Shown piece by piece: positions 37,750 to 54,223 of a DNA stretch of 64,000 nucleotides. Every line of letters begins with the position of its first letter. Position 1 is the first letter of the stretch. Source of the DNA: Nocardioides houyundeii (GTDB lineage Bacteria; Actinomycetota; Actinomycetes; Propionibacteriales; Nocardioidaceae); NCBI RefSeq assembly GCF_002865585.1, contig NZ_CP025581.1:248001-312000 (forward strand), in the 5' to 3' direction. A program made the position numbers and the translations under genes. The notes beneath the pieces were generated by a model. That model had not been told where the DNA came from. It saw nothing but the letters and a program-made list of their open reading frames with translations, and ran no database searches.

Positions 37750-37763
37750 GTGGTCTGGACCAC
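37750..37763. promoter_or_regulatory. TetR-type palindrome upstream of the PRISE gene
   Basis: GTGGTC, two bases, GACCAC: perfect 6-bp arms in the 239-bp gap between the PRISE gene and the SGNH fusion gene. A plausible operator for a TetR regulator, possibly the one now truncated at 36369. The rest of the gap shows no gene or clear signal. Confidence 0.4.
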
Positions 37764-37947
37764 TTTGGTCTTTGCGCCCGGCCCGGCTTACGGTGCTCCG
37801 GCCGGCGTTACCGGGAGGGGCGGCGTCGGCGCCGGGGTGTCACACGCCGACACCCGGAGGTCTCCGCACACCCGCGGTCCCAGCTCCCTCCCCGCTTCCC
37901 CCGGCTGCAGCCCCTCGGACTCGCACACCTCGGGAAGGTTCCCTCTC

Positions 37948-39699
37948 TTGTCACGCCTCAGCGCCACGTTGGCGCTCACTCTCGTCGGCTCCGTGGCCGC
38001 CGTCCTGGCCGGCTCGACGCCGGCCCAGGCCGCCGTGCCGACACGTCCCTTCGACCACTACGTCGCGCTCGGCGACTCGTTCACCGCGGGCCCGTTGATC
38101 CCGCCGACCAGCCTGGCGCCGTGTGCGCGCTCGACCAACAACTACCCGCGGATCCTGGCCGATCGGCTGGGCGTGAAGCTCACCGACGTCTCGTGCTCCT
38201 CGGCCCGCACCGAGCACATGACCACCCCTCAGGAGGGCATCCTCGGCACCGCGCCGCCGCAGTTCGACGCGCTGCGCCCCGACACCGACCTGGTCACCCT
38301 CGGCATCGGCGGCAACGACGGCGGCCTCTTCGGCACGCTGATCGACGAGTGCCCCGCGCTCGCCCCCAGCGACCCGGAGGGCTCGCCGTGCCAGGACGAG
38401 TTCACCCAGGGCGGCGTCGACCTGATGGCCGCCAAGATCGTCAAGACCAAGCAGGACGTGCTCGGCGTGCTCGACGGCATCCGCGAGCGGTCGCCGTACG
38501 CCGAGGTGGCGGTCGTCGGCTACCTCCGCCTGATGCCGGAGAGCGGCTCGTGCACCAACGGCGCGGTCCCGATGACCGGCAAGGACATGCTCTGGGCCGA
38601 CAGCCTCCAGCGCCAGCTGAACACCGCGCTGGCCGAGGCCGCGGCGGAGCGCGGCGCGAAGTACGTCGACCTGTACGGCCCCTCGCGCGGCCACGACGCC
38701 TGCGCGGGCGAGGACGCTTGGGTGCAGGGCAAGTGGATCGACATCCTCAAGGCGATGGAGTACCACCCGTTCGCCTCCGGCATGGAGGCCGGCGCGAAGA
38801 TCGTCTACGAGACCCTCTTCGGCACCGACCTGGCCCGCGGCCGGCAGGTCCAGGCCTCGGGCACCGAGCACGGCTACGCACCGTCGTACGCCGTGGACAA
38901 CGACACCTCGACCCGCTGGGCCAGCGGTGAGTGGGCGGACGGCGCCTGGCTGCAGGTCGACCTCGGCGCCCGCCGGTCGGTGGACCGGCTGGTGCTCAAC
39001 TGGGAGAAGGCGTACGCCGCCGGCTACCGGATCGAGGTCTCCGACGACGGCGCCACCTGGCGCACCGTGTGGGAGACGATCAACGGGGACGGCGGGCACG
39101 ACACCGCCACCTTCGACGCCACGCAGGCTCGTTACGTCCGGGTCAGTGCCGCCAAGCGCGCGACGCGCTACGGCATCTCGCTCTTCGACCTGGAGGTCTA
39201 CGGGCCGGCGGAGTCGGGGTCCCCGGGAGCGGGCACCGGAGCCGGGACGGGAGCGGGCACGGCGACGCAGGTTCCCGCGCCCACCGCGACCGAGACCAGC
39301 GCCGGCGCCACGACGGAGCAGCGGCGGGTCAACGCCACGGTGCTCGGCTCGCCCCGGCCCGACCGGGTCCGGGTGCGACTGGCCGACGGGAGCAAGGCCG
39401 TGGTCCGGCTCGTCGGGGTGAAGCAGCCCCGGTCGTCGTGTCGTCCCGCCGCCCGGAAGGCGGCCCGGAAGGTGCTGGCCAAGGGCAAGAAGGTGGTCCT
39501 GGTCCGCGACGCCCGAGCATCCGGCAAGCGCGCCTCGAGCCGCTACGTGATGGTGGGCGGCAAGGACCTGGGGAAGCGACTGGTGCGCGGCGGTCACCTG
39601 CTGGTGGCCAAGGGGTCCTTCACCAAGCGCAAGGCCTACACCAAGGTGCAGCGCGCCGCGCGGAAGCACGGACGCGGCTCGTGGGGCGGCTGCCGCTGA
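37948..39699 (+). CDS. Secreted SGNH hydrolase with F5/8-type C (CBM32) and SNase-like C-terminal domain
   Basis: A 583-aa exported three-domain protein. Signal peptide about 1-29 (LALTLVGSVAAVLAGS, APAQAA-like cleavage). The SGNH domain (30-290) has GDSFTAG (Ser 44), GGND and YHPFASG with the catalytic His. A discoidin/F5-8C domain (about 295-415) has ASGTEHGYAPSYAVDNDTST and WLQVDLGARRSVDRLVLNWE, a carbohydrate-binding type. After a Gly/Thr/Ala linker, residues ~460-583 resemble a staphylococcal-nuclease fold (VVRLVGVKQP, LVRGGHLLV), but the catalytic Asp40 and Glu43 positions are Lys and Arg. Start: TTG 37948 with GGGAAGG upstream; longer in-frame starts lack a signal peptide. Confidence 0.85.
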   Translation: MSRLSATLALTLVGSVAAVLAGSTPAQAAVPTRPFDHYVALGDSFTAGPLIPPTSLAPCARSTNNYPRILADRLGVKLTDVSCSSARTEHMTTPQEGILGTAPPQFDALRPDTDLVTLGIGGNDGGLFGTLIDECPALAPSDPEGSPCQDEFTQGGVDLMAAKIVKTKQDVLGVLDGIRERSPYAEVAVVGYLRLMPESGSCTNGAVPMTGKDMLWADSLQRQLNTALAEAAAERGAKYVDLYGPSRGHDACAGEDAWVQGKWIDILKAMEYHPFASGMEAGAKIVYETLFGTDLARGRQVQASGTEHGYAPSYAVDNDTSTRWASGEWADGAWLQVDLGARRSVDRLVLNWEKAYAAGYRIEVSDDGATWRTVWETINGDGGHDTATFDATQARYVRVSAAKRATRYGISLFDLEVYGPAESGSPGAGTGAGTGAGTATQVPAPTATETSAGATTEQRRVNATVLGSPRPDRVRVRLADGSKAVVRLVGVKQPRSSCRPAARKAARKVLAKGKKVVLVRDARASGKRASSRYVMVGGKDLGKRLVRGGHLLVAKGSFTKRKAYTKVQRAARKHGRGSWGGCR

Positions 39700-39772: not shown

Positions 39773-40351
39773 TCAGCGTGCCCAGGTGGAGGTGAACCAG
39801 TGCACGGCCCCGGTCTCCGGGTCGTAGCTGCGCCGCGGCAGGGTGCCGATGTCGGCGCCGTAGACGTGGATGCCGATCACCGGCTCGGCGCCACCGCACG
39901 AGACCTGGTGCACGTCGTCGTCGGTGGTGCAGCACACCGTCACCTCACCGGCGGTCCACGAGTCGCTGCCCTCGGCGACCAGCGGGACGTCCGGTGCCGC
40001 GGGCTTGTGGAAGCGGGTCTCGACCTCGACACCGCTGTAGATGCCCACCACGCCCCAGGTCTCGTGGCCGTGCACCGGCGTGCCCTGGCCGACGTCCCAG
40101 ACGGCGCTGGCGATCGAGAAGGCGCCGTCGGCGGCGACGTGCAGCGGGTACATCACGTAGCGCTCCGGGTCGGGCCGTCGCAGCAGCTCCGGGATCTCGA
40201 AGCCGCTGCGGAGCAGTGCGGTGAGCTCCCCGTGGACCGCCGCGGTCAGGGCCTGCTCGTCCAGGCCCTGGTCGATCAGCGCCCGCACGGTGGCGGCGAA
40301 CTCCGCCACCTCGGGGATGTCGCTCTGCACGGGGACGATCTCCCTTGTCAT
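39773..40351 (-). CDS. Thiol dioxygenase-like cupin (cysteine/3-mercaptopropionate dioxygenase family)
   Basis: A 192-aa cupin. The non-haem iron site is visible: VGQGTPVHGHETWGVVGIYS gives the HxH pair, with a third His in VIGIHVYGADIG, preceded by DDDVHQVSCG. The HxHxTWGVVG form is closer to mercaptopropionate dioxygenases than to mammalian cysteine dioxygenase. The expected reaction is thiol + O2 to sulfinate. ATG 40351 overlaps the crotonase stop (TGATG). It is last gene of a six-gene operon whose other members (LLM monooxygenases, CoA-transferase, crotonase) suggest breakdown of a sulfur-containing acid. Confidence 0.8.
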   Translation of the reverse strand: MTREIVPVQSDIPEVAEFAATVRALIDQGLDEQALTAAVHGELTALLRSGFEIPELLRRPDPERYVMYPLHVAADGAFSIASAVWDVGQGTPVHGHETWGVVGIYSGVEVETRFHKPAAPDVPLVAEGSDSWTAGEVTVCCTTDDDVHQVSCGGAEPVIGIHVYGADIGTLPRRSYDPETGAVHWFTSTWAR

Positions 40352-41091
40352 CACACGCTCTCTCTCTGACGGGACGGCTGGCGGGACGGCTGACGGGGTG
40401 TGGCGGCATAGGCCAGGACGCGCTCCTGCAGGCCGGGCTCGGCCACCGAGCGGGCGAGCGCGGCGAGAGCGCCGTCGGCGTCGTAGGCACGGGCCTGGGC
40501 CAGCAGACCGGGCCGGGCGATCGGAGCGGTGAGCGCCCAGGTGCGCAGCACGGCGTCGACGCAGGGTTCCGGGTCGTCGGCGAGCTCGGTGAGCAGCCCC
40601 TCGCCGAGTGCCTCCGACGCGTCCCGCCGGCGGCCGCCGTCCAGGGCCCGGTGGGCGCCGGCCTGCGAGGAGAGCCGCGCCGTGCCCAGGACGACGCCGA
40701 AGGCCGAGCCCGGGAACCGGAACGATGCTCCCGGGGTGCCGATCCGCCTGTCGCAGGCCAGCGCGAGGTCGGCACCGGCGCCGATCGCGGCGCCCTCGAC
40801 CACCGCGACGGTCAGGCAGGGCAGGGTCAGCAGCCGCTCCAGGACGAGGCCGATGCGCAGCAGCCGATGGGCCAGCGACCCGTCGGTCTCCTGGGGCAGG
40901 TCGGCGAGGTCGAGCCCGGCGGCGAAGTGCCGGTCGTTGCCGCGCAGCACCAGCGCGTCGGGGCGGGCCTCCGCGGCCTCCTCCAGCACGCCGTGGAGCG
41001 CCTCGACCAGCTCGGTGGAGAGCGCGTTGGCGCGGTCCGGCCGGTCGAGCGCGACCTGCCAGACCGCGCCGCGCCGGACCCGGAGCGTCAC
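40351..41091 (-). CDS. Enoyl-CoA hydratase/isomerase family protein (crotonase)
   Basis: A 246-aa crotonase. The oxyanion-hole segments are DRHFAAGLDLADLP and VVEGAAIGAGADLALACDRR. The usual catalytic Glu of the PE.xLG block is not obvious: the corresponding FPGSAFGVVLGTARL has Gly/Ser, so it may act as an isomerase, hydrolase or desulfinase-like variant rather than a hydratase. GTG 41091 overlaps the CoA-transferase stop (GTGA) and was preferred over ATG 41103. It acts on the CoA thioester made by the preceding gene product (inference). Confidence 0.85.
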   Translation of the reverse strand: MTLRVRRGAVWQVALDRPDRANALSTELVEALHGVLEEAAEARPDALVLRGNDRHFAAGLDLADLPQETDGSLAHRLLRIGLVLERLLTLPCLTVAVVEGAAIGAGADLALACDRRIGTPGASFRFPGSAFGVVLGTARLSSQAGAHRALDGGRRRDASEALGEGLLTELADDPEPCVDAVLRTWALTAPIARPGLLAQARAYDADGALAALARSVAEPGLQERVLAYAATPRQPSRQPSRQRESV

Positions 41092-42281
41092 CGCGCCGCC
41101 CATTCGGCGAGCACCTCGGCGGTGTCGTGGCCGAGCAGCGGCGCCGCCCGGTCCAGCCGCGGGTCGAGCCCCGCGATCCGCGCGGGGAACACCACGGCCG
41201 GCGTCGGGCCGGCCAGCGGCACCTCCAGCTCGTCCACCAGCCCGGTGTCGCTGACGTGCCGGTCGGCGAGCATCTCGCCGAAGGTGTTGACCGGACCGCA
41301 CGGGACCCCGCGGGCGCGCAGCTCGGTGAGCCAGTGCTCCCGCTTCTCCCGGTGGAACTGCTCCTGGAGCAGCGCCTCGAGGTCGTGCTGGTGCGCGACC
41401 CGGTCGAGCTGGGTCAGGAACCGGGGATCGGTCACCAGCCCAGGCAGCCCGACGACCTCGGCGACGGCGTGCCACAGCCGGTCGTTGCCCGCCGCGACCG
41501 TGAACTCCCCGTCGGCGGCCGCGAACCCCTGGTACGGCGCGTTGCGCGGGTGCGCGGTCCCCAGACGTTGCGGCTCCCGGCCCGACCCCCAGTACTCGCT
41601 CGTCTGCAGCGCCGAGACCCCGATGAGGCAGTCCAGCATGGGGCAGTCCACGTGCACCGAACGTCCGCTGTCGCGGACCTGCGGCAGCAGCGCGGCGATG
41701 GTGTAGGCGGCGTACAGGCCGGCGGTGAAGTCGCCGACCGGCACTCCCGCCTTCACCGGGTGCCCGTCGGGGTCGCCGGTGACGCTCATCAGCCCGGACA
41801 TGCCCTGGATGACCACGTCGTAGGCGCCGTCGTTGACGTACGGGCTGGAGAGTCCGTAGCCGGAGATCGAGCAGTAGACCAGCCCCGGGTGGCCCGCGGT
41901 GACCTCGTCGTAGCCGAGCCCGAGCCGGTCGAGCACGCCCGGACGGTAGTTCTCCACCACCACGTCCGCGGCCTCGATCAGCTGCCGGGCGTGCGCGAGC
42001 TGGGCCGGGTCCTTCAGGTCCGCGACCACCGAGCGCTTGTTGCGGTTCACCGAGGCGAAGTTGTGGCTGAACCGCTGCTCGCCGTCGGCGGAGGTGGCGA
42101 ACGGCGGCCAGGCGCGCATCTGGTCACCGCTCGGCGGCTCCACCTTGACGACGTCGGCGCCGAGGTCGGCCAGCAGCATCCCGGCGAACGGCCCGGCGGC
42201 CACGTGCGCCAGCTCCACCACCCGGACGCCCTCGAGGGGTCGACGCAGCGGGGGAGCGGCTGGACGACTGCGCTCAGGCAC
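41088..42281 (-). CDS. Family III CoA-transferase (CaiB/BaiF)
   Basis: A 397-aa CoA-transferase: LEGVRVVELAHVAAGPFAGM, LADLGADVVKVEPPSGDQMR, ASVNRNKRSVVADLKDP, VVVENYRPGVLDRLGLGYDE and YCSISGYGLSSPYVNDGAYD. The catalytic Asp is expected in the VDCPMLDCLIGV region. It activates a carboxylic acid by CoA exchange. Family III enzymes activate 3-sulfinopropionate in known mercaptopropionate/thiodipropionate degraders, which fits the dioxygenase in this operon. GTG 42281 overlaps the LLM stop by eight bases. Confidence 0.93.
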   Translation of the reverse strand: MPERSRPAAPPLRRPLEGVRVVELAHVAAGPFAGMLLADLGADVVKVEPPSGDQMRAWPPFATSADGEQRFSHNFASVNRNKRSVVADLKDPAQLAHARQLIEAADVVVENYRPGVLDRLGLGYDEVTAGHPGLVYCSISGYGLSSPYVNDGAYDVVIQGMSGLMSVTGDPDGHPVKAGVPVGDFTAGLYAAYTIAALLPQVRDSGRSVHVDCPMLDCLIGVSALQTSEYWGSGREPQRLGTAHPRNAPYQGFAAADGEFTVAAGNDRLWHAVAEVVGLPGLVTDPRFLTQLDRVAHQHDLEALLQEQFHREKREHWLTELRARGVPCGPVNTFGEMLADRHVSDTGLVDELEVPLAGPTPAVVFPARIAGLDPRLDRAAPLLGHDTAEVLAEWAAR

Positions 42282-43296
42282 TGGCCACCTCGGGAACGGG
42301 TGCGATGACGTGCTCGGCGAAGAGCTCCTTGCCGGCGCGCCAGGTGGCCGGGTCGAGGCCGGGGGAGTCCGCGTGGTGGTAGGTCATGGTGTGGCCGAGG
42401 CGGCCCTGGAGCTGCTCGAACTTCTCGCGCACCTCCGCCGGGCTGCCGACCAGGGCGGTGCTGGTGGCCAGGTAGGACTCGAAGTCGTCGTACGGCAGCC
42501 GGCCGAAGACCTGGCCGAACTGCTGCATCTGGCAGTCGAACGCCGGCCGGAACTGCCGGCGGGCGTCCTGGCTGCTCGCGGCGACGTGCACCCCGGCGAC
42601 CCCGACGCCGACCTGGACCTCGGCCGCGTCGCGGCCGTTCGCGGCCCACTCCTCCCGGTAGGTCGCGAGGTGCTGAGCCACCGCGTCGATCGTGGCGAAG
42701 AGGTTGCCGCTGACGAGCCGTTCGCCCCAGGCCGCCGGCCGGGCGGCCGACTCGCGCGAGGAGAGCCCGGCGTGCCAGACGGGGATCCGCGGCTGCCTCG
42801 GCGGGGGCGAGAGCTCGACGCCGTCGAGGGCGGGCCGGAGCCCACCGTCGTACGTCGCGGAGCGGTTGTGCCACAGGTCGCGCAGCAGCTCGTACGACGC
42901 GACCGTCAGGGGCGTCTGCTGCTCGGCGCTGATGCCGAAGACCTTGGCGGAGGTCGGGCCGAGGCCGGTCCCGATGATGAGCTCGAGCCGTCCACCCGAG
43001 AGCTGGTCCACCGTGGCGTAGTCCTCGTAGGCCCGCACCGGGTCGTGCATGGCGATCGTGGTGGCGGCGGTGAACAGGCGGATCGTCGACGTGCGAGCCG
43101 CGAGGTAGCCCAGCAGCACGGCCGGCGACGAGCTCAGGTACGTCGGCTCGTGGCGCTCGCCGACGCCGAACCCGTCGAACCCGAGGCTCTCGGCGAACGC
43201 GGCGGTGTCGCCGAGCTGCCGGTAGCGCTGGGAGACGTCGGCGCCCGGCTCGTGCGGGATGAGGCTCATCAGCATGAAGCGGTGCTGCGGGCTCAT
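42274..43296 (-). CDS. LLM class flavin-dependent oxidoreductase (monooxygenase B of the operon)
   Basis: A 340-aa luciferase-like TIM-barrel enzyme: FAESLGFDGFGVGERHEPTY, ARTSTIRLFTAATTIAMHDP, RAYEDYATVDQLSGGRLELI and GTGLGPTSAKVFG. This type uses FMNH2 (or F420H2) with O2. It differs from the DszA/NtaA-type enzyme encoded upstream, so the operon has two LLM enzymes. ATG 43296 overlaps the hydrolase stop (ATGA). Confidence 0.9.
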   Translation of the reverse strand: MSPQHRFMLMSLIPHEPGADVSQRYRQLGDTAAFAESLGFDGFGVGERHEPTYLSSSPAVLLGYLAARTSTIRLFTAATTIAMHDPVRAYEDYATVDQLSGGRLELIIGTGLGPTSAKVFGISAEQQTPLTVASYELLRDLWHNRSATYDGGLRPALDGVELSPPPRQPRIPVWHAGLSSRESAARPAAWGERLVSGNLFATIDAVAQHLATYREEWAANGRDAAEVQVGVGVAGVHVAASSQDARRQFRPAFDCQMQQFGQVFGRLPYDDFESYLATSTALVGSPAEVREKFEQLQGRLGHTMTYHHADSPGLDPATWRAGKELFAEHVIAPVPEVASA

Positions 43297-44036
43297 GCCG
43301 TGACCCCGTCCAGGGCGAGCTCGCTGACGATCGCCGGCAGGTCGCGTCCCAGGCGCAGGGACTCCAGGAAGAGCACGATGGTCGCCGCGACCGCGCGGTG
43401 CGTGGCGTCGTTGAGCACGTCGTGCCGTCCGCCGTGGACCACCTTGACCACGGCGTGGGGCACGCCGGCGTACGGCGCGACGGCCTCGTCCAGGGCCGTG
43501 ACGGTGTCGGCGTCCCCGTGCAGCACCAGCGTGGGCTGCTCCGGTACGACGGGTGCCTCCCAGTCGCGGGGAAGCGGCAGGTTGAGCGCGCCGCGCTCGA
43601 AGGCGCTGTCGCCCTCGAGGACTCCGCGGTGCACGGGGCACGCCGAGCGCGCGTCCAGCTCGGCCGCCCAGTCGTCCACGCCGGCCCAGGAGGCCGAGGA
43701 GGCCGACGCGGCACCGGCGATGATCGCCGCGTCCGCGTGCACGTCGTCGGCCACCCGACCCACCCAGCTGGCCCCGGTGTCGGCGCCGAGCAGCACCTTG
43801 GGGGCCGGCAGGGACTCGTCGGCGACCAGCTTCTCCAGGACCGTGCGGCTGCCCTCGGTGTCGTCGAGGTCCAGGGCTACCAGCCGCACCTTCCAGCTCT
43901 CCGCCGCGATGCGCCGGCCGAAGCGCTGGTACTGCGCCGTTGTTTCACCCCGGCCCGGGACGACGATGAGCGTCCCGCGCGGGACCGCGCCGGTCGGCTC
44001 GTCCCAGGCGTCCGGGCCCCGCTCCCCGGTGCTCAT
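43293..44036 (-). CDS. Alpha/beta hydrolase fold protein with Asp in the nucleophile elbow
   Basis: A 247-aa protein. The fold is indicated by GTLIVVPGRGETTAQYQRFG, TLVLHGDADTVTALDEAVAP (acid Asp) and VKVVHGGRHDVLNDATHRAV (catalytic His). The elbow GADTG (84-88) has Asp 86 where esterases have Ser, as in epoxide hydrolases and haloalkane dehalogenases. It may thus use a covalent aspartyl intermediate, or be an inactive or atypical variant. ATG 44036 overlaps the upstream LLM stop, and its stop overlaps the next LLM start; both LLM enzymes flank it in the operon. Confidence 0.78.
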   Translation of the reverse strand: MSTGERGPDAWDEPTGAVPRGTLIVVPGRGETTAQYQRFGRRIAAESWKVRLVALDLDDTEGSRTVLEKLVADESLPAPKVLLGADTGASWVGRVADDVHADAAIIAGAASASSASWAGVDDWAAELDARSACPVHRGVLEGDSAFERGALNLPLPRDWEAPVVPEQPTLVLHGDADTVTALDEAVAPYAGVPHAVVKVVHGGRHDVLNDATHRAVAATIVLFLESLRLGRDLPAIVSELALDGVTA

Positions 44037-45391
44037 GCGCTCGCGCCCGAGGTGCGCGCCGCGGCGTACCTGTTGGCCGGGACCGGAAGGCCCAGGTTGC
44101 CGCGCAGGGTGTCGGACTCGTAGTCCTTCCGGTAGACGCCGCGCTCCTGGAGGATCGGCACCACCTCCTGCACGAAGCGGGAGAAGTTCGCCGGGTGCCC
44201 GGTGTGGATGTTGAAGCCGTCGGCGGCCCGCGCCTCCCACCACTCGACGAGCTTGTCGGCGACGGTCGACGGCGATCCCACGAACTCGCGCTTGCGCCAC
44301 ACCCGGGTGGACTCGACGGCCTCGCGCAGGGTCCAGCCGTTGTCGACGGCGCGCTTCGTGATCGCCTGCGCCTGGGTGTAGAACGAGCGCTCGCCGTAGG
44401 CGAGGGTCTCGGCCGGGAAGGGGGCGTCGAGGTCGTACTGGGTGAAGTCGTGCCAGCCGAACGGGCGCCCGAACTCCCCCAGCGCGGCCTCGAAGGTGTG
44501 GTCCACCTCGTGGTAGTGCGCCTCGAGCTCGCGGGCCTCCTCGTCGGTGTCGGCCACGACCACCTGGACCCCCGGCATCACCACGAGCTCGTCGGGGTTG
44601 CGGCCGAACTTGTCCCGGGCCCGGGCCTTGATGTCGGTGTAGAACGCCTGGCCGCTCGGCACGTCGGGTGCGTGGGTGAAGATGCCCTCGCCCACGCTGG
44701 CGCCGAGGTCACGGCCCTGGTCGGAGTCGCCGGCCTGGAAGATCACCGGGGCGCCCTGGCGCGAGCTCTCGATGTTGAGCGGGCCCCGGACCTTGAAGTA
44801 CTCGCCCTCCCAGTTCAGCGTGTGCTGCTTCGCGGCGTCGAGGAACTGCCCGGTCTCCCGGTTGCGCGGGAAGGCGTCGTCCTCGTAGGAGTCCCACAGC
44901 GCGCGGGCGAGCTCGACGTACTCCCGGGCCCGCCCGTAGCGGGTGTCGTAGTCGTACATCTCGTCGAGGCCGTAGTTGAGTGCGGTCCCGGCGTCGCCGG
45001 TGGTGACCACGTTCCAGCCGGCGCGGCCGCCGCTGATCAGGTCGAGCGAGGCGAGGCGGCGCACCAGGTTGAACGGGCTGTTGAAGCTGGTCGTCAAGGT
45101 GCCGACCAGACCGATGTTGGTGGTGTGGGTCGCCAGCGCGCTCAGCAGGGTGAGCGGCTCCAGCCGGTTGAGGTAGTGCGGCGGCGAGTACGGGGTGATG
45201 AACTGGCTGTCGACGATGAAGAGCAGGTCGAACTTCGCCGCCTCGGCCTCCTTGACGGCCTTGAGGTACCAGCCGATGTTGACGCTCGCGTCGCCCGGGA
45301 TGTCCGGGTCGTGCCAGAGCGTGTGCTGACCGGGGCCGCCGGTCGGGGTGGTGACCGCCCCCAGGTGAATCTGCCGCTTCGCCATCATCAT
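44033..45391 (-). CDS. NtaA/SnaA/DszA family FMNH2-dependent monooxygenase (monooxygenase A, first gene of operon)
   Basis: A 452-aa LLM enzyme of the NtaA/SnaA/DszA group (usual length 430-460), which includes sulfone monooxygenases and nitrilotriacetate monooxygenase. Typical blocks are AKRQIHLGAVTTPTGGPGQH, FDLLFIVDSQFITPYSPPHY, EPLTLLSALATHTTNIGLVG, ISGGRAGWNVVTTGDAGTAL and SRQGAPVIFQAGDSDQGRD. It needs a separate flavin reductase; none is in the operon, though two lie at 20-21 kb. Three consecutive ATGs occur (45391, 45388, 45385); the first follows TATCAC by seven bases. It is divergent from the LysR gene. Confidence 0.93.
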   Translation of the reverse strand: MMMAKRQIHLGAVTTPTGGPGQHTLWHDPDIPGDASVNIGWYLKAVKEAEAAKFDLLFIVDSQFITPYSPPHYLNRLEPLTLLSALATHTTNIGLVGTLTTSFNSPFNLVRRLASLDLISGGRAGWNVVTTGDAGTALNYGLDEMYDYDTRYGRAREYVELARALWDSYEDDAFPRNRETGQFLDAAKQHTLNWEGEYFKVRGPLNIESSRQGAPVIFQAGDSDQGRDLGASVGEGIFTHAPDVPSGQAFYTDIKARARDKFGRNPDELVVMPGVQVVVADTDEEARELEAHYHEVDHTFEAALGEFGRPFGWHDFTQYDLDAPFPAETLAYGERSFYTQAQAITKRAVDNGWTLREAVESTRVWRKREFVGSPSTVADKLVEWWEARAADGFNIHTGHPANFSRFVQEVVPILQERGVYRKDYESDTLRGNLGLPVPANRYAAARTSGASA

Positions 45392-45440
45392 CCAATCCGT
45401 GATACGCGCCCGAACCTCTCGAGTCGCATTGAACACAATC

Positions 45441-45452
45441 TCAACTAAGTTA
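45441..45452. promoter_or_regulatory. Candidate LysR operator, copy 1 (TCAACTAAGTTA)
   Basis: An AT-rich 12-mer with the 9-bp palindrome AACTAAGTT, in the 139-bp divergent region between the catabolic operon and lysR. Eleven of its 12 bases recur upstream of the ABC importer (46533-46544). Confidence 0.45.
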
Positions 45453-45530
45453 CGAGACAATGTCCAACAATGAGTCACCACTTCATCCATCACGTCCGCT
45501 GATGGGTAGGACGGACAGGTCTGCCGAGCA

Positions 45531-46430
45531 ATGCCAGGAACCCTCGACATCACCCCGCTGCGCAGCTTCGTCGCCGTCGCTGACAACGGCGGCTTCCAGC
45601 GAGCCGCCGACGCGCTGCACCTGAGCCAGGCGGCCGTCAGCCAGCACGTACGCCGTCTGGAGCTGGCCGTGGGGCGGCGGCTGTTCGAGCGGGACGGGCG
45701 GTCCTCGCGGTTCACCCACGACGGCGAGGCGCTGCTCGGCTACGCGCGCCGGCTGCTGGAGCTGCACGACCGCACCCTGGCCCACTTCCTCCCCGACGAG
45801 GTCCCGGCGCTGGCCATCGGCTCCACCGAGCACGCCGCGGCCCAGCTGCTGCCCGCCCTGACCGGCGCCATGGGCAGTGCCCTGCTCCGGCACGAGGTGC
45901 GCCTGCGGCTCGACCGCGGCGTCCGCCTGCGGGAGGACCTCGCCGCGGGTCGGCTCGACCTGGCGATCCTGCCGGGACCGACGGCGAACCCCGAGCTCGA
46001 CGGGTCGGCCAGTGCCCTGACCGTCGGCTCGCTCGAGCTCACCTGGTACGCCGCCCCCGGGTGGAGGCTGCCCGGTGACGGCACGGTGCCGATCGTCGTC
46101 TTCGAGAGCCCGTGCGCGCTGCGGGTGCGCGCGGTGGAGACGCTGAACGCCCACGGGCTCAGTCCGAGCGTGGTCGGCGAGGCGGTCCAGCTCGCCGGGG
46201 TGCAGGCGGCCGCCGCCGCGGGCGTGGGGGTCGCGCTGATGGCCACGCTGGGCCAGGTGCCCACGGGTCTCGTCGAGGTCGAGGACCTGCCGCTGGTGCC
46301 GCCGCTGGAGTTCGCGGTGTGGGGGCGCTCCGGGATCGACCCCGGGCTGCTCGCCTTCGTCGCCGACGCCCTGGGCCGGACGGTGGCCGCCGCCCCACGT
46401 GCGGAGCGGGGTGTCGACGTGGCGGTGTGA
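45531..46430 (+). CDS. LysR family transcriptional regulator
   Basis: A 299-aa LysR-type regulator. The winged HTH spans residues 5-65 (LRSFVAVADNGGFQRAADAL, LSQAAVSQHVRRLELAVGRR). The effector domain shows RLREDLAAGRLDLAILPGPT and VQLAGVQAAAAAGVGVALMA. It sits between the divergent catabolic operon and the ABC importer, so it is the obvious local regulator of both. ATG 45531; no strong RBS is visible. Confidence 0.93.
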   Translation: MPGTLDITPLRSFVAVADNGGFQRAADALHLSQAAVSQHVRRLELAVGRRLFERDGRSSRFTHDGEALLGYARRLLELHDRTLAHFLPDEVPALAIGSTEHAAAQLLPALTGAMGSALLRHEVRLRLDRGVRLREDLAAGRLDLAILPGPTANPELDGSASALTVGSLELTWYAAPGWRLPGDGTVPIVVFESPCALRVRAVETLNAHGLSPSVVGEAVQLAGVQAAAAAGVGVALMATLGQVPTGLVEVEDLPLVPPLEFAVWGRSGIDPGLLAFVADALGRTVAAAPRAERGVDVAV

Positions 46431-46532
46431 GCGCGGTGACCCATCGCGCTGGGCGATGAATGCGGCGAGAAAGCGTTGTTGGACTCCAGGCGTCCTGACG
46501 GGCACCCTCGTACCCGTCCCGGATTAAGTCGA

Positions 46533-46544
46533 TCAACTAACTTA
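46533..46544. promoter_or_regulatory. Candidate LysR operator, copy 2 (TCAACTAACTTA) and importer promoter
   Basis: It differs from the motif at 45441-45452 at one base and overlaps a probable -10 element (TTATATTCA, 46542-46550). The transcript would have a leader of about 90 nt before ATG 46644. Confidence 0.45.
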
Positions 46545-46643
46545 TATTCAGGACTCGCAGCCGCCTCAGCGGTGGCGCCCGATCCACGGGGTCCTGACGA
46601 CCCCGGCAGCGCGGCCTGGCCGCAAGAAAGGCTGAATCGCACC

Positions 46644-48244
46644 ATGAGGAAGAAGTCGCGCCCCACCCTGGCTGCGCCCGCCCCCCGCGGCACCGTCCGC
46701 CGTCGCACGAACCGCGTGCGGCGCTCCCTCGTCGCCGCGTCCGCGGCCGTCCTGACCGCCTCGCTCCTGGCCGCCTGCGGTGGCTCGAGCTCGTCCGGTG
46801 CCGCCGGCAGCGGCACCGGGGGCGTCCTCAACATCGCCAACCCCGGCGACGTGCCGGCGTACGACCCGGTGGTGCTCGGCCCCACCGCAACCACCCAGAC
46901 GCTCTCGCTGATCTACGAGCCCCTCTTCACCCTCGACGAGGCCGGCAAGATCCAGCCGGCCCTCGCGACCGAGTACACCTTCAACGACAAGGGCGACCGG
47001 CTCTCGCTGACCCTGCGCAAGGGGCTGACGTTCCAGGACGGTTCCCCGCTCGACGCCGAGGCCGTCGTCTACCACCTCGAGCGCGGCCTCTCCCAGGAGA
47101 ACTCGGCGCTGAAGGCGGCGTACCACGAGATCAAGAGCGTGAAGGCGGTGGACGCCACCCACGTCCAGATCGACCTCATCCGGACCGACTTCGGATTCCC
47201 GCTGATCCTGGCGAACCGCTCCGCCCTGATTGCCAGCAAGCAGGCCGCGGAGAGCGACCTGAAGACCCTCAACGCCACCGGTCCCGTGGGGCGGGCCCGT
47301 TCAAGGTGGTCAAGGTCGTGCCCGGCGCGTCGATCACGCTGGAGAAGTGGGACGGCTACTGGGACGCCGACAACATCAAGATCGACAGCGTCAAGGTCAG
47401 CCTGCAGACCGACCCGGCCACGGTGCTCTCCGGTCTGCAGACCGGCGTCTACAACTTCGCGCTCAGCCTGTCGCCGCAGAACGTCGAGTCGGCCAAGTCC
47501 TCAGGCCTGAAGGTGTGGGCGGACACGGCGGCCAACTGGGTCGCCGCGTTCGTCAACGTCAACAAGAAGATCGCCCCCTTCACCAACCCCAAGGTCGTCG
47601 AGGCGTTCAACGCCGCCATCGACCGCGAGGCGTTCGTAAAGAACCTGACCTTCGGGCTCGGTGTCGCGAGCGCCAACCCGGTGCCCTCGAACAACCCGGC
47701 GTTCAACCCCGCCATCGACGAGGAGATCGCCTTCGACCCGGCGAAGGCCAAGAAGCTGCTCGCCGAGTCGGGCGAGAAGGACCTCTCGATCGAGGTCCAC
47801 GTCTTCCCGACGACGTCGGCTCCCGCGGAGCAGCTCCAGCAGCAGCTGGAGGCCGTGGGCTTCAAGGTCAAGATCGTCGCCGACGACACCACGTCGTTCT
47901 ACCCCGGCTACTACGGCAAGACCCAGCAGGCCGCGGTCTACGGCTACGTGGGGCGGGACAACAAGCTGCTCGCCCTCGACGAGCACTTCTCGGAGTCCGG
48001 CATCCTGAACCTCTCCGCGACCGAGGACCCGGCCTACACCGCCGCGCGGCAGAAGGTACTCACCACCCCGCTCGACGACCCGAACTACGACGACTACCTC
48101 CAGGCTGCCGCCAAGGTCGGCGTCGAGACCGGCGGCAGCGTCTTCCTCTACACCTCGCCCACCGCCTCGGTGACGTCGGCGGACGTCTCCGACTTCGGCA
48201 AGACCGACGGCTTCTTCCGCTGGAACGGGATCACGGTCGGATGA
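46644..48244 (+). pseudogene. ABC importer solute-binding lipoprotein (SBP family 5), single-base frameshift
   Basis: It would encode 533 aa. A lipoprotein signal ends LTASLLAACGG. The family-5 fold in frame 1 has GGVLNIANPGDVPAYDPVVL, YEPLFTLDEAGKIQPALATE and LSLTLRKGLTFQDGSPLDAE up to LNATGPVG. At the GGGG run 47288-47291 the frame slips, and the second frame resumes GAGPFKVVKVVPGASITLEK, WDGYWDADNIKIDSVKVSLQ and on to FFRWNGITVG. One extra G restores GPVGAGPFKV, exactly the family consensus GTGPF. Probably a sequencing error, since all partner genes are intact. The stop overlaps the permease ATG. Confidence 0.88.
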
Positions 48245-49254
48245 CCGTGCTCGCGGAGAGCGGGACGGACTGGACCGTCCGGCCCGCCCTCCACCGTCTG
48301 CGGCGGGTCGCCGCCGGCGCGGGGCGGCTGCTGGCCGCCTTCGTCCCGGTCTTTCTGCTCGGCTCGATCTTCACCTTCCTGCTGGGCGCGTTGAGCGGGC
48401 GGAGCCCGGCGGTCATCCAGCTGGGCGAGAACGCCACGCCGGAGGCGGTCGAGGCGATGAACAAGGAGTGGGGCCTGGACCGGCCCTTCCTCGTCCAGTA
48501 CGTCGACTGGCTCGGCGACGTGCTCCGCGGCGACTTCGGGGTGAGCTGGGCGAACAACACCCCGGTCAGCGAGCTGCTCGCCGGCCGGGCGGCGATCAGC
48601 CTCTCCGTGGCGGTGCTCGCCCTGGTGCTGGGCGTCGTCGTCGGGTCGGCCCTCGGCGCCCTGGCCGCGCACTACCACGGCTCGTGGTTCGACCGGGGCG
48701 TCACGATCTTCACCTCGATCATCTCCGTGATGCCGCCCTTCATCGTGGGCATCGCGCTGATCGTCGTCGTGGCGGTCCGCTTCGAGTGGCTCCCCGCCGC
48801 CAGCTACGTGCCGTTCGAGCAGGGGCTCTGGCCGTGGCTGAGCCACATCATCCTGCCGGCGCTGGCGCTCAGCCTGGACACCATCTCCGACATGGCGCGG
48901 CAGCTGCGCGTGGGCCTGCTCAACACCTCGAAGGAGAACTACGTGACCGGGGCGATCGTGCGCGGTCTCAGCCCTCGCCGGGTGTTCTTCGTCCACACCC
49001 TGCGCAACGGCGTCGGTCCGGCCATCGCCGTGCTCGGGCTCAAGTTCCCCAACCTGCTCGGCGGTGCGGTGGTCACGGAGTCGATCTTCCAGCTCTCCGG
49101 CTACGGCCTGTTCTCCGCGCAGTCGGCGATCAAGGGCGACGTCCCGGCCGTCCAGGCCGTGCTGGTGGTCGCGGTGATCCTCGTCGTCGTCTTCAACCTG
49201 GTCGTCAACGCGGTCCTCGCCCTGCTCATCCCGGCATCGAAGAGAGGTGTGTGA
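48241..49254 (+). CDS. ABC transporter permease 1 (DppB/OppB-type)
   Basis: A 337-aa permease with six TM helices. Family blocks are WGLDRPFLVQYVDWLGDVLR (GDFGxS-type loop GDFGVSWANNTPVSELL), ALGALAAHYHGSWFDRG, and the EAA-like region YVTGAIVRGLSPRRVFFVHT with GGAVVTESIFQLSGYG. It pairs with permease 2 for oligopeptide, nickel or opine-type import. ATGA overlap with the binding-protein gene. Confidence 0.93.
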   Translation: MTVLAESGTDWTVRPALHRLRRVAAGAGRLLAAFVPVFLLGSIFTFLLGALSGRSPAVIQLGENATPEAVEAMNKEWGLDRPFLVQYVDWLGDVLRGDFGVSWANNTPVSELLAGRAAISLSVAVLALVLGVVVGSALGALAAHYHGSWFDRGVTIFTSIISVMPPFIVGIALIVVVAVRFEWLPAASYVPFEQGLWPWLSHIILPALALSLDTISDMARQLRVGLLNTSKENYVTGAIVRGLSPRRVFFVHTLRNGVGPAIAVLGLKFPNLLGGAVVTESIFQLSGYGLFSAQSAIKGDVPAVQAVLVVAVILVVVFNLVVNAVLALLIPASKRGV

Positions 49255-50165
49255 TGGTCCGCAACGTGCTGCGGCTCCGGAGCGGGCAGGTGGCGGTGAC
49301 GATGCTGGCGCTCCTGGTCCTGCTCGCCGTCCTCGGCGGCTTCCTGGCGCCGTACGAACCCAACGCCACCGTCGGGGACCCCCTGACCGGTCCCTCGGGA
49401 GGGCACTGGCTCGGCGCCGACTACCTCGGGCGCGACGTGCTGAGCCGCCTGCTCGCGGGCTCCGCGCTGAGCCTCGCCGGCGCGCTGTTCGTCGCGGTCC
49501 TGGCCTTCCTCCTCGGGACGGTGCCGGGCATGCTGTCGATCTACCTCGGCCGGACGTTCGAGTGGATCTCGCTGCGGCTGACCGACACCCTGATCGCGCT
49601 GCCGTTCCTGGTTTTCGCGGTGGCGATGACGGCCCTGCTCGGCAACGGCGTGGTGCAGGCGCTCTTCGCGGTCGGCATCCTGCTCGCCCCCGTCTTCTAC
49701 CGCGTGGCGCGCAGCGCCACGATGGGCGTCGAGAGCTCGCAGTACGTCGAAGCGGCCGTCCTGGCCGGGGCCAGCACCAGCTGGGTGGTCTCCAAGCACG
49801 TGCTGGTCAAGGTGCTGCCGCCGCTGGCGATCTCGTTCGCGACGACCCTGGGCATGGGCCTGGTGGTCATCGCGAGCCTGACGTTCCTCTCCATCGGTGT
49901 CACCCCGCCCACCGCGACCTGGGGCGGCGTGCTGGCCACCGACCTCCAGTTCATCGCGATCCGGCCCTTCGCCCCGTTCGTCCCGGTCGTGCTCATCCTC
50001 GTCTCGGTGCTGGCCTGCAACCTGCTCGCCGACGCCATCCGGGACGTGACGGGCGAGTCGGGCCGGCAGCTCCTCGCCGCTCGGGAGGCCAGGCGGTCAC
50101 GCCGTCGCCCCCTGGTCGCGGCACCATCCCCCGCTGGAACCCCCGAAGGAGACACCCATGTCTGA
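49254..50165 (+). CDS. ABC transporter permease 2 (DppC/OppC-type)
   Basis: A 303-aa permease. The N-terminal TM helix and periplasmic loop carry LAPYEPNATVGDPLTGPSGG then HWLGADYLGRDVLSRLLAGS, the typical DppC signature. The cytoplasmic EAA loop reads YVEAAVLAGASTSWVVSKHV. The C-terminal ~25 residues are basic and Pro-rich. ATG 49254 overlaps the permease 1 stop, and its end overlaps the first ATPase start by eight bases. Confidence 0.93.
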   Translation: MVRNVLRLRSGQVAVTMLALLVLLAVLGGFLAPYEPNATVGDPLTGPSGGHWLGADYLGRDVLSRLLAGSALSLAGALFVAVLAFLLGTVPGMLSIYLGRTFEWISLRLTDTLIALPFLVFAVAMTALLGNGVVQALFAVGILLAPVFYRVARSATMGVESSQYVEAAVLAGASTSWVVSKHVLVKVLPPLAISFATTLGMGLVVIASLTFLSIGVTPPTATWGGVLATDLQFIAIRPFAPFVPVVLILVSVLACNLLADAIRDVTGESGRQLLAAREARRSRRRPLVAAPSPAGTPEGDTHV

Positions 50166-51003
50166 CAGCGTTCTCACCGTGCGGGACCTCGAGATCACCA
50201 ACACGGTGACGGGAGCACCGCTCGTCCACCGGGTGGACCTCGACCTGCGGCGGGGCCAGGTGCTGGGCATCGTCGGCGAGTCCGGAAGCGGCAAGACGAT
50301 CACGATCCGCGCCGTGCTCGGCATCCTGCCGCACGTCCTGGAGATCACCCGCGGCTCCATCGAGATCCTGGGCCGAGCGACGACCAGCTTCAGCGCCCAG
50401 GACTGGATCGACACCCGAGGCACCGTCATCTCGGCGGTGTTCCAGGACCCGGGCTCCTACCTCAACCCCTCCATCCGCATGGGCAAGCAGGTCCAGGAGG
50501 TGCTGCGCGTCAAGAAGGGCCTGTCCCGTGCCGAGGCGCGGGCCGAGACCCTGCGTCTCTTCGAGGCAGTGCACCTGCGCGACCCCGAGCTGGTCTACCA
50601 GCAGTACACCCACGAGCTGTCCGGCGGCATGCTGCAGCGGGTGCTGATCGCCGCGGCCATCGCGCTGGGACCCGAGGTCCTCATCGCCGACGAGGCCACC
50701 ACCGCCCTGGACGTGACCGTGCAGGCCGAGATCCTCGACCTCCTCGTGGAGCTCAAGGAGAGGGAGGGGCTCTCCCTCGTGGTGATCTCCCACGACCTGG
50801 CGGTCGTCGCCCAGCTGTGCGACGACGTCCTGGTGATGCGGGACGGGGAGGTCATCGAGCATGGCACCGCCGAGGCCGTGCTGCGCTCCCCGCAGCACGA
50901 GTACACCCAGCTGCTCATCGCCGAGCACGAGCGGTACGGGCTCGACTACTTCTTCGCCAAGCACGCCCTCGCCTCGTCACGGAAGGTCGCCACCTATGCC
51001 TGA
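50158..51003 (+). CDS. ABC transporter ATP-binding protein 1 (DppD/OppD-type)
   Basis: A 281-aa ATPase: Walker A VGESGSGKTI, Q-loop ISAVFQDPGSYLNPSI, signature LSGGMLQR, Walker B VLIADEATTALDV, and H-loop VISHDLAVVAQLCDDVLVM. The C-terminal oligopeptide-transporter extension with the Fe-S Cys cluster of some DppD/DppF proteins is absent or very short. It is coupled to permease 2 and ATPase 2 by overlaps. Confidence 0.94.
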   Translation: MSDSVLTVRDLEITNTVTGAPLVHRVDLDLRRGQVLGIVGESGSGKTITIRAVLGILPHVLEITRGSIEILGRATTSFSAQDWIDTRGTVISAVFQDPGSYLNPSIRMGKQVQEVLRVKKGLSRAEARAETLRLFEAVHLRDPELVYQQYTHELSGGMLQRVLIAAAIALGPEVLIADEATTALDVTVQAEILDLLVELKEREGLSLVVISHDLAVVAQLCDDVLVMRDGEVIEHGTAEAVLRSPQHEYTQLLIAEHERYGLDYFFAKHALASSRKVATYA

Positions 51004-51889
51004 CCTGCCCCGCACCCGTCCGCTGCTCGCCCTCGAGCGCATCGACGTGCACTACGGCCGTGGCCGCACCAGCACTCACGTCATCCATGACGTGAGCCTC
51101 CAGGTCGCCCGCGGCGAGATCGTCGGACTCATCGGGGAGAGCGGCTCGGGCAAGTCCACGATCGCGCGCGCGGTCCTCGGCCTGGTGGGGCTCAGCGGCG
51201 GTGACATCCATGTCGACGGTGAGCACGTCAACGTCCACTCGCGGGCCCAGCGCCGCGCCTTCCGGCGCCGCGGCGTCGTGCAGTACGTCTTCCAGGATCC
51301 GCTGCGCAGCCTCGACGGCGACGTCTCGATCGGCGACTCGATCGCGGAGCCGCTCCGCATCCGCGGCGGCCTGTCCCGGGCGGCGGTCAAGGAGAAGGTC
51401 CGCGAGTACGCCGGCAAGGCCCGGCTCGACGTTCAGCTGCTCGACTGCTATCCGGCCGAGATCTCGGGTGGGCAGCGACAGCGCGCGGCCATCGCACGGG
51501 CGCTGATCACCGAGCCCAAGCTGCTGATCCTCGACGAGCCCGTGAGCGCGCTCGACGCGGCGACCCGGGTGCGGATCATCGACGGTCTGACCGCCCTGCG
51601 CGACGAGGGCATCGGCATGCTCTACATCTCCCACGACCTCGGCTCGGTGGCCGGCGTGACTGACCGCACCGTGGTGCTGAGCCAGGGAGTCGTGGTGGAG
51701 TCCGGCCGCACCCAGGACGTGGTCACCGACCCGCAGCACCTCTACACCAGGCTGCTCGTCGGCTCGGCGCCGCTGCTCTCGGGGGAGGCGCTGACCCGGC
51801 ATGAGCGCAACGAGCTTCGCAGGCAGCTGAGTCAGGCCTTCTTGGACAGCGACGAGGCCAGGGACCAGGGCCCTAGTCTTCGGACATGA
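50996..51889 (+). CDS. ABC transporter ATP-binding protein 2 (DppF/OppF-type)
   Basis: A 297-aa ATPase: Walker A GESGSGKSTIARAVLGLVG, QYVFQDPLRSLDGDVSIGDS (a DPxxSL block), signature ISGGQRQRAAIARAL, Walker B LLILDEPVSALDA and YISHDLGSVAGVTDRTVVL. It completes a five-gene importer (SBP, two permeases, two ATPases). ATG 50996 lies within the ATPase 1 gene. The -10 box of the next gene (51874) lies inside its last codons. Confidence 0.94.
   Translation: MPDLPRTRPLLALERIDVHYGRGRTSTHVIHDVSLQVARGEIVGLIGESGSGKSTIARAVLGLVGLSGGDIHVDGEHVNVHSRAQRRAFRRRGVVQYVFQDPLRSLDGDVSIGDSIAEPLRIRGGLSRAAVKEKVREYAGKARLDVQLLDCYPAEISGGQRQRAAIARALITEPKLLILDEPVSALDAATRVRIIDGLTALRDEGIGMLYISHDLGSVAGVTDRTVVLSQGVVVESGRTQDVVTDPQHLYTRLLVGSAPLLSGEALTRHERNELRRQLSQAFLDSDEARDQGPSLRT
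51874..51879 (+). promoter_or_regulatory. -10 box of leaderless promoter inside the ATPase 2 gene
   Basis: TAGTCT, six bases before ATG 51886. It lets the downstream secreted-protein gene be transcribed independently of the importer. Confidence 0.45.
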
Positions 51890-53326: not shown

Positions 53327-54223
53327 TCAGGCGCGCGCCGCGGCGACCTCACGTCGTACGGCGGGGGCCACCTCGGCCGCGAACAGCTCGGTGGTGGCGG
53401 TGTCGTCGGAGGGGAGGATGAACCCGCTGGTGCCGTAGGTGAGGGCGATGTCGGTGAGCTCCTCGACCCACTGCTCGGGCGGGCCCTGGAGGACGCCGGT
53501 GCTGGTGCGGGCGAAGGCGCCGGAGATGTTGAGGAAGCGTCGTACGGCACGGGGGTCCCGCCCGGCGGACTCGACGCCCTCGTCGATGTGCTTGTTCATG
53601 GCGGTGAGGTCGGCGGCGCCGCCGGGCAGGTAGGGCAGGGAGGGCAGCCAGCCGTCGGCGACCCGGCCGGTCAGGTCCAGCATGCGTGGCTTGTAGGCGC
53701 CGATCCAGATGCCGGGGTGGTGGGCCGGCGCCGGTCCGCGCTTGGCGCCGCTGACCGAGTAGTGGGTGCCGGTGACGCTCAGGCCGCCCGGCTGGTCGGT
53801 GTCCCAGATGCCGCGGATGATGGTGACCGCCTCCTCCAGGGCCGCGATCGACTCGCCAGCGGTCCGCCGAGGCCCGCCCATGGCCTCCACGCCGTCCCAG
53901 AAGGCACCGGCGCCGATGCCGAGCTCGACGCGTCCGCCGGAGAGCAGGTCGGCCGTGGCGACGCTGCGGGCGAGCACGGCGGGCGGGCGCAGCGGCAGGT
54001 TGGTTACGTTGGCGCTGAGGTGGATCCGCTCGGTACGGGCCGCGGCGTAGGCGATCAAGGTCCAGGTGTCGTGGAACTTCGCGACGTACGGGTGGTCCTG
54101 GAAGGTGACCAGGTCCAGGCCGGCCCGGTCGGCCACGATCGCCTGCTCCACCGCGTGGTGGACCGGCTGGTTGGTCGGGGTGACGAAGGTGCCGAAAAGC
54201 AGGTCGTGTCCGTAGTCGGTCAT
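53327..54223 (-). CDS. LLM class flavin-dependent oxidoreductase (F420-type)
   Basis: A 298-aa luciferase-like protein: VEQAIVADRAGLDLVTFQDH, RIHLSANVTNLPLRPPAVLA, TADLLSGGRVELGIGAGAFW and HHPGIWIGAYKPRMLDLTGR. These features fit actinobacterial F420-dependent LLM oxidoreductases. ATG 54223 overlaps the stop of the FAD-oxidase gene; it is third gene of the MarR-controlled azoR operon. The 157 bp on its 3' side (53170-53326) hold nothing I recognise. Confidence 0.9.
   Translation of the reverse strand: MTDYGHDLLFGTFVTPTNQPVHHAVEQAIVADRAGLDLVTFQDHPYVAKFHDTWTLIAYAAARTERIHLSANVTNLPLRPPAVLARSVATADLLSGGRVELGIGAGAFWDGVEAMGGPRRTAGESIAALEEAVTIIRGIWDTDQPGGLSVTGTHYSVSGAKRGPAPAHHPGIWIGAYKPRMLDLTGRVADGWLPSLPYLPGGAADLTAMNKHIDEGVESAGRDPRAVRRFLNISGAFARTSTGVLQGPPEQWVEELTDIALTYGTSGFILPSDDTATTELFAAEVAPAVRREVAAARA

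Follow-up and report, generated by a model that had tools for sequence, protein, structure and literature searches.

The described systems closest to the operon analysed here are the 3-mercaptopropionate/dithiodipropionate cluster of Advenella mimigardefordensis DPN7 (PMC5373536) and the thiodipropionate cluster of Variovorax paradoxus TBEA6 (PMC6370202), taken, like the other published systems below, as they appear in excerpts of the papers cited. The Advenella genes lie in the order LysR, family III coenzyme A (CoA)-transferase, desulfinase Acd, Mdo, AhpD-domain protein, TctC, TctC (PMC5373536), and in these papers sulfinates are desulfinated at the CoA-ester level by a single enzyme type, the acyl-CoA-dehydrogenase-like Acd of beta-proteobacteria (PMC5373536, PMC6370202). 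The operon in question is a run of six genes from the high-GC actinobacterium Nocardioides houyundeii, located in a window (the whole stretch of DNA analysed, 64,000 nucleotides) that spans bases 248001-312000 of the single 3.84 Mb contig NZ_CP025581.1. The operon shares with both clusters a dioxygenase of the 3-mercaptopropionate dioxygenase (3MDO) kind and a clustered family III CoA-transferase; the activation of a sulfinate to its CoA ester, known in those systems, is proposed for this one, and a LysR regulator is shared with Advenella. It differs in carrying a crotonase instead of Acd, which has an acyl-CoA dehydrogenase fold, in having a front end of two luciferase-like (LLM) flavin monooxygenases and a Dpp-type importer in place of disulfide reductase or Ech enzymes and TctC, and in possessing a dioxygenase of another clade, with Gly for the Ser of the Ser-His-Tyr (SHY) motif. 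No description of this gene set was found among open-licence papers. We propose, with a probability of roughly 0.47, that the operon serves the breakdown of a thioether- or mercapto-carboxylate under LysR control, comprising import, C-S cleavage, sulfinate formation, CoA activation and crotonase-type desulfination. Such a pathway would be a variation on mercapto-acid/3-sulfinopropionate degradation, the novel part being the predicted crotonase-type desulfinase. A previous sequence-only reading of the window had put forward the same chain, which agrees more closely with the comparative data than do the rivals considered below, although its desulfination step is still a prediction and has counterexamples.

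The open reading frames of the window confirm six minus-strand genes that overlap by 1 to 8 bases at all junctions, as that reading had described. LLM1 (44033-45385) overlaps the alpha/beta hydrolase (43293-44036) by 4 bp, the hydrolase overlaps LLM2 (42274-43296) by 4 bp, LLM2 overlaps the CoA-transferase (41088-42281) by 8 bp, the CoA-transferase overlaps the crotonase (40351-41091, GTG start) by 4 bp, and the crotonase overlaps the dioxygenase (39773-40351) by 1 or 4 bp, depending on whether the latter starts with the ATG at 40351 or a GTG at 40354. The family labels assigned earlier were also upheld: two Bac_luciferase proteins, an Asp-elbow hydrolase (Asp86), CoA_transf_3, ECH_1 and a thiol-dioxygenase-like cupin.

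The operon was compared with a sample of 198 genomes, taken as Nocardioidaceae; genome searches scored at most 8 to 13 candidates per genome, and the counts are hence lower bounds. The dioxygenase (E≤1e-15) is present in at least 17 of these genomes, the CoA-transferase (E≤1e-90) in at least 14, the crotonase (E≤1e-20) in at least 13 and LLM1 (E≤1e-100) in at least 12. LLM1, CoA-transferase and dioxygenase lie within ~12 kb of each other in at least 11 of the 198, the genome of the window included, and the crotonase accompanies them in 10 of these. A lack of conserved co-occurrence of dioxygenase and LLM genes, which the sequence-only reading had named as a refuting outcome, was not seen: of the 12 genomes in the sample that possess LLM1, 11 have it clustered with dioxygenase and CoA-transferase. 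A divergent homologue of the LysR gene (54-59% identity) adjoins LLM1 in all 10 family genomes with clustered genes that were opened. A phylum-wide sample, with two of 396 genomes positive including that of the window, was too sparse. Given this conserved synteny, the arrangement is beyond chance, and the operon is a conserved, sulfur-linked catabolic operon. Conservation does not extend to LLM2, which the sequence-only reading had placed in the set. LLM2, a CE1758/2I7G-type Bac_luciferase protein, was found at E≤1e-60 (with no more than 10 candidates scored in each genome) in two of the 198 genomes, one of them that of the window, and was dropped as a conserved part of the operon; relatives carry an SsuD/MsuD-like LLM in its place.

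A dioxygenase search of a species-genome collection returned 62 loci, of which 25 hold CoA-transferase and crotonase matches in the same locus, one (L009) holds the crotonase and then reaches the contig end, and 36, including L013, lack the pair (L037 has a weak crotonase match alone). In Nocardioides, Pimelobacter and Nocardia, LLM1 is usually followed, in this order, by the binding protein, two permeases, two ATPases, the SsuD/MsuD-like LLM, CoA-transferase, crotonase, dioxygenase and hydrolase, with an HpaC-like flavin reductase after the hydrolase in 14 of the 21 loci L002-L022 and an SsuE-like one in eight. The window is an outlier among these operons, both in the type of its second LLM and in an importer that is nearer to that of genome G191 (permeases 56-57%, ATPases 57-66%) than to the importers of the other operons. 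The G191 locus contains LysR, LLM1, importer, a second LLM1, an LLM2-like gene, hydrolase and flavin reductase, and no CoA-transferase, crotonase or dioxygenase match within the 19 kb taken. The system therefore consists of two separable halves: a front end of regulator, importer, monooxygenases, hydrolase and flavin reductase, and a back end of CoA-transferase, crotonase and thiol dioxygenase.

No Pfam model matches the cupin at E≤0.001; it scores 95 bits against 3MDO, 73 bits against 4qma (a bacterial 'cysteine dioxygenase type I'), 24 bits against mercaptosuccinate dioxygenase (Msdo) and at most 21 bits against cysteine dioxygenase type 1 entries. The roles of the 3MDO residues, namely the iron-binding His residues, the SHY motif and the Arg to which the carboxylate of the substrate binds and which marks 3MDO as against cysteine dioxygenase, have been described (PMC8050391, PMC10966181). 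The three iron ligands His94, His96 and His148 (His90, His92 and His142 of 3MDO), together with His162 and Tyr164 (His157 and Tyr159) and Arg173 (Arg168), are present in 28/28 operon-type sequences, and the alignment to 3uss is ungapped around the Arg stretch. A Cys-Cys pair lies just before the third iron ligand in the operon-type enzymes. The cupin is accordingly classed as a predicted 3MDO-like thiol dioxygenase, and the alignment check that could have removed it from the thiol dioxygenases left the 3MDO active site in place but for one Ser. Identity with Msdo was rejected on the scores (24 bits against 95 for 3MDO). The Msdo pathway resembles the one proposed here in LysR control and in a thiol dioxygenase that yields the sulfinate of a mercapto acid, but its product sulfinosuccinate decays spontaneously and its neighbourhood, as listed in the excerpt, contains neither CoA-transferase nor crotonase (PMC5373536). 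On a tree of 23 dioxygenases, those that occur with the CoA-transferase and crotonase (hereafter the trio) fall into two groups with a long branch of full support between them; both groups also hold non-trio enzymes, giving two label changes, and the Peribacillus sequence is a long branch of unsure placement. Two lineages of dioxygenase have thus partnered the CoA-transferase/crotonase pair, through two recruitments or one old association, which the tree does not distinguish.

The CoA-transferase is a full-length family III enzyme (PF02515, 385 bits over residues 16-387) with relatives of the succinate/glutarate type (4ed9, 309 bits; succinate-hydroxymethylglutarate CoA-transferase, 268 bits), and Asp217, aligned here within a PMLD motif, is presumably its catalytic residue. 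The crotonase is nearest to 3isa, a Bordetella structure deposited as a putative enoyl-CoA hydratase/isomerase, at 136 bits with the single sequence and 281 bits by profile, the next structure scoring 145. Its predicted model (predicted local distance difference test, pLDDT, of 78) is closest in fold to 3isa, and the fold search, which returned 3isa and then general crotonases, gave no hint of function; nor does the title of the 3isa entry. Asp108 and Gly128 occupy the positions of E144 and E164 in hydratase numbering, the catalytic Glu pair of enoyl-CoA hydratase. Asp and Gly stand at these positions in 35/35 aligned homologues, an alignment that omits L064 (in pieces) and L080 and includes L009, whose CoA-transferase lies beyond the contig end. 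3isa belongs to the same subfamily by profile and fold and has the same Asp/Gly pair. L025_crot2, the sole second-type crotonase aligned as a contrast, has Val and Glu. Both hydratase Glu residues are lost. The Glu pair is the usual acid/base pair for hydration and elimination; its loss suggests that C-S heterolysis fits the enzyme better than either of these reactions.

The main rival is that the CoA-transferase activates a thioether acid and the crotonase beta-eliminates the thioether-CoA to a thiol and an enoyl-CoA, in which case the dioxygenase would only dispose of the thiol and another enzyme would desulfinate. We consider this unlikely, as the residues lost from all 35 aligned crotonases are those on which elimination would usually depend, the two LLM enzymes of the window and its relatives could already cleave the C-S bond, and on a Cupriavidus campinensis plasmid (L079) the crotonase occupies the slot of Acd. 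That plasmid has the order divergent IclR-type regulator, CoA-transferase, Mdo-type dioxygenase, crotonase, TctC-like protein and CMD/AhpD-family protein, such that the crotonase replaces the Acd of Advenella but on the other side of the dioxygenase. In favour of beta-elimination, CoA-transferase/crotonase pairs without a nearby dioxygenase exist, and V. paradoxus TBEA6 requires Ech-20 and Ech-30 for thiodipropionate, one published variant of its route being beta-elimination of thiodipropionate-CoA (PMC6370202). Genes of the CMD family lie ~3 kb or less from the dioxygenase in L021, L022, L043, L095 and L097 as well, and also in L026, a locus with neither a CoA-transferase nor a crotonase match.

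A further explanation, which we regard as improbable, is that the operon follows the route already known for 3-mercaptopropionate, that the acyl-CoA-dehydrogenase desulfinase is encoded at another place and that the crotonase handles the downstream carbon skeleton (e.g. acryloyl-CoA or another enoyl-CoA). The Variovorax cluster does group Act, AcdA, Mdo and crotonase-type genes (PMC6370202), and one relative (G008) lacks the crotonase and keeps the rest. However, a Pfam search of the six operon genes, which did not extend to the rest of the genome, matched no acyl-CoA dehydrogenase model, the matches abut in mapped relatives such as L003, L008 and L010, leaving no room for a further gene between LLM1 and the hydrolase, and the Asp/Gly motif speaks against plain hydration. 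The crotonase and dioxygenase are, moreover, joined in one stop-free frame of 408 amino acids in L033.

LLM1, an NtaA/DmoA-family monooxygenase dependent on flavin mononucleotide and the proposed C-S cleaving enzyme, belongs to NCBIfam TIGR03860 (465 bits, cut-off 280). Among solved enzymes it matches YtnJ at 391 bits, 3sdo at 343, DszA at 227, ethylenediaminetetraacetate (EDTA) monooxygenase at 218 and DmoA at 189, and a profile built from 11 LLM1 relatives scores 478 bits for YtnJ/MoxC, 459 for 3sdo and 297 for DszA. The label 'DszA/NtaA-type' holds at the level of the TIGR03860 family, whereas a DszA-type identity is ruled out by these scores; among the solved members, LLM1 is placed by sequence nearest the CmoJ/YtnJ subgroup. 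CmoJ cleaves the C-S bond of S-alkylcysteine sulfoxides, which are made by a second LLM, CmoO (PMC10863075). The salvage of S-alkylcysteine and S-(2-succino)cysteine in Bacillus subtilis (CmoO-CmoJ, YxeK; PMC10863075) resembles the window in placing a CmoJ-like LLM beside a second LLM, and flavin reductase genes stand beside LLM1 in many relatives of the window operon. It differs in that the N-acetyltransferase and deacetylase of the salvage pathway are not encoded among the six operon genes, as judged by Pfam and NCBIfam, and in that the thiol of the window is proposed to enter dioxygenase and CoA chemistry and not to return to cysteine. It is also conceivable, though very improbable in our view, that the operon is unrelated to sulfur, the LLM enzymes cutting C-N bonds as in nitrilotriacetate (NTA) or EDTA breakdown and the cupin oxidizing another substrate. 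The LLM1 family includes NTA and EDTA monooxygenases, and 3sdo is the second-closest solved relative of LLM1, but CmoJ/YtnJ is closer by single sequence and by profile, the cupin keeps the Arg, His and Tyr of 3MDO, and elsewhere the trio is adjoined by sulfite dehydrogenase and by sulfonate-type ABC and LLM genes. The sulfite dehydrogenase, SorA/SorT-like (177 bits, cut-off 600; PF00174, PF03404), lies between crotonase and dioxygenase in L025, and none was found near the trio in the other loci compared.

The hydrolase is of the Hydrolase_4 type; Asp86 replaces the nucleophilic Ser of the elbow, and His205 is retained; both residues are invariant in 14/14 aligned sequences, and the predicted model (mean pLDDT 81) best matches the folds of monoacylglycerol lipases and type II thioesterases. 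From the gene content, synteny, active-site residues and module distribution, which are observed directly, we infer all of the reactions and the sequence in which they occur, as well as what the substrate is and what the Asp-type hydrolase does. In the proposed scheme, the Dpp-type importer would take up a thioether- or mercapto-carboxylate under control of LysR, and LLM2 or the SsuD-like enzyme, followed by the CmoJ-like LLM1, would oxidize it and cut the C-S bond to give a mercapto acid. The 3MDO-type dioxygenase would convert the thiol to a sulfinate, the family III CoA-transferase would convert the sulfinate to a sulfinoacyl-CoA, and the crotonase lacking both hydratase Glu residues would break the C-S bond to release sulfite and an ordinary acyl-CoA. 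Desulfination by the crotonase is favoured by the single frame that it shares with the dioxygenase in L033, by the sulfite dehydrogenase gene of L025, by its position in L079 and by the Asp/Gly motif. An alpha-sulfinoacyl-CoA, for example from mercaptoacetate, would be the substrate best suited to the crotonase, because loss of SO2 would leave an enolate for the oxyanion hole. In methylmalonyl-CoA decarboxylase, an enolate is held by the crotonase oxyanion hole. 3-Sulfinopropionyl-CoA is a possible substrate, and 3-mercaptopropionate is equally compatible with the dioxygenase residues. A hint of a C2 acid, natural for the enolate mechanism, comes from Bradyrhizobium genes that may point to a route from mercaptopyruvate through mercaptoacetaldehyde to mercaptoacetate. 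Searches of open-licence papers for thiodiglycolate or mercaptoacetate degradation and for sulfinoacetate found nothing useful.

The back end was also followed on plasmids. A crotonase match was returned for 23 plasmid records, of which 10 were opened; the others comprise six from peanut Bradyrhizobium (like the one opened), three from Rhodococcus (like L084) and four from sphingomonads (25% of the query matched). A CoA-transferase match was returned for 567 records, nine of the 30 listed being opened, and the Polaromonas plasmid was opened via another match. Counts of the pair exclude L083, where the CoA-transferase lies with phosphonate genes, and L084, where a distant crotonase has no CoA-transferase. 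CoA-transferase and this crotonase occur together on 10 distinct plasmids fetched, four of which have a clustered thiol dioxygenase. The trio on a Bradyrhizobium guangxiense plasmid is accompanied by subunits like those of sulfopyruvate decarboxylase, a thiamine pyrophosphate-dependent type of decarboxylase (102 and 118 bits, below cut-offs of 148 and 222), an ABC importer resembling Ssu and, in divergent orientation, an aldehyde dehydrogenase, and that of a Peribacillus plasmid by sulfonate-importer-type genes and an SsuD-like LLM. The trio is also present on the Polaromonas and C. campinensis plasmids and in actinobacteria outside the main group (L025, L043, G096/L095 and G106/L097, in a divergent form in G106), there with a Bradyrhizobium-like ABC importer and, in G096 and L043, an aldehyde dehydrogenase. 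The CoA-transferase/crotonase/thiol dioxygenase back end thus moves between contexts. Where a Rhodococcus JS3073 plasmid carries the pair, it is accompanied by an LLM, an HpaC-like reductase and an MFS gene, and the dioxygenase is absent from the fetched flanks. In four loci (L066, L065/L081, L080, L074) the pair occurs with a Rieske oxygenase, a VanB-type reductase and LysR, and three of these also have an AtoE-type transporter and a class III alcohol dehydrogenase; the Rieske-associated loci may encode a pathway that releases formaldehyde.

Several observations weigh against crotonase-type desulfination in a sulfur pathway. The structure second-closest to LLM1, 3sdo, was deposited as a nitrilotriacetate (C-N) monooxygenase, and the Ser of the SHY motif (S155) is Gly in 28/28 actinobacterial-type dioxygenases. 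In G008/L098, which retains LLM1, the CoA-transferase and dioxygenase genes are ~100 bases apart with no crotonase between them, and Nocardia jiangxiensis (L013) lacks both CoA-transferase and crotonase; in the latter an SsuD-like LLM and the thiol dioxygenase share one frame (L013:8831-10594), through deletion or assembly collapse. The CoA-transferase and crotonase of the Polaromonas plasmid and the CoA-transferase of the Peribacillus plasmid are in pieces, and the solute-binding protein gene of the window itself is frameshifted. Finally, six of the 10 pair-bearing plasmids have no dioxygenase in the fetched flanks, and five of those six carry Rieske oxygenase genes, ~8 kb away in Caballeronia. 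It is speculation that these Rieske contexts accommodate desulfination, which they would do only if the oxygenase makes the sulfinate directly.

A wider reading, which we hold only tentatively, is that the whole crotonase subfamily, including 3isa, consists of sulfinoacyl-CoA desulfinases that form, with the CoA-transferase, a portable two-gene unit joined to varied sulfinate-making front ends, and that it represents a second, independently evolved desulfinase fold acting via an enolate. Those front ends could be a thiol dioxygenase after LLM cleavage in actinobacteria, a thiol dioxygenase acting downstream of an enzyme like sulfopyruvate decarboxylase in Bradyrhizobium or, where there is no thiol dioxygenase, a Rieske oxygenase or an LLM making the sulfinate directly from a sulfone.

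The LysR gene (45531-46430; PF00126/PF03466) and the importer genes (46644-51889) lie on the plus strand, divergently from the operon, as the sequence-only reading had placed them, but the importer is not complete as had been claimed, its binding protein being split across two frames. In the intergenic region between LLM1 and LysR (45386-45530), a TCCAAC/GTTGGA element is common to the window and 11 of 12 relatives (L013, L085-L094, L096; counted by eye), often beside a GTGATG-N-CATCAC palindrome, and is likely to be a LysR operator. The family 5 solute-binding protein gene (46644-48244, with PF00496 in its second part) reads in two frames, 46644-~47297 and ~47300-48244, with the break near 47290-47300 in a G/C-rich run. 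The halves are in one frame in 23/23 loci where both matched close together, and the frameshift is either a sequencing error or a recent lesion. Permeases 1 (48241-49254) and 2 (49251-50165) are open frames in their conserved place in the importer and are followed by ATPase 1 (50158-51003; PF00005) and ATPase 2 (50996-51889; PF00005, 103.5 bits), the latter with an oligo_HPY-like end below the Pfam cut-off (PF08352, 23.7 bits against 27.1). A plasmid of Novosphingobium sp. RL4 (L077:15001-22722) carries two LLM1 genes, the first at 64%, along with a Dpp-type importer, so the coupling of LLM1 to the importer crosses phyla.

Adjoining the end of the operon at 37753-39699 is a gene for a GDSL lipase that contains an F5/8 type C domain and whose C-terminus is weakly nuclease-like. 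A neighbouring minus-strand cluster (53327-56348) encodes an F420-type LLM, a BagK/FevA-like flavin adenine dinucleotide (FAD) oxidase and a Flavodoxin_2 protein. An LLM/FAD oxidase pair resembling this cluster lies near the dioxygenase in L035, and the LLM3/FAD-oxidase genes (53327-55581) were excluded as members of the system, like genes being found near the dioxygenase in that one locus of 62.

If the proposed pathway is correct, desulfination would be a new reaction for the large crotonase superfamily, and a function would be suggested for 3isa, a crystal structure that has been without one. It would also indicate that Nocardioides, Nocardia and Bradyrhizobium catabolize thiols and thioethers, and the CoA-transferase/crotonase pair would provide a two-gene marker for finding such catabolism.

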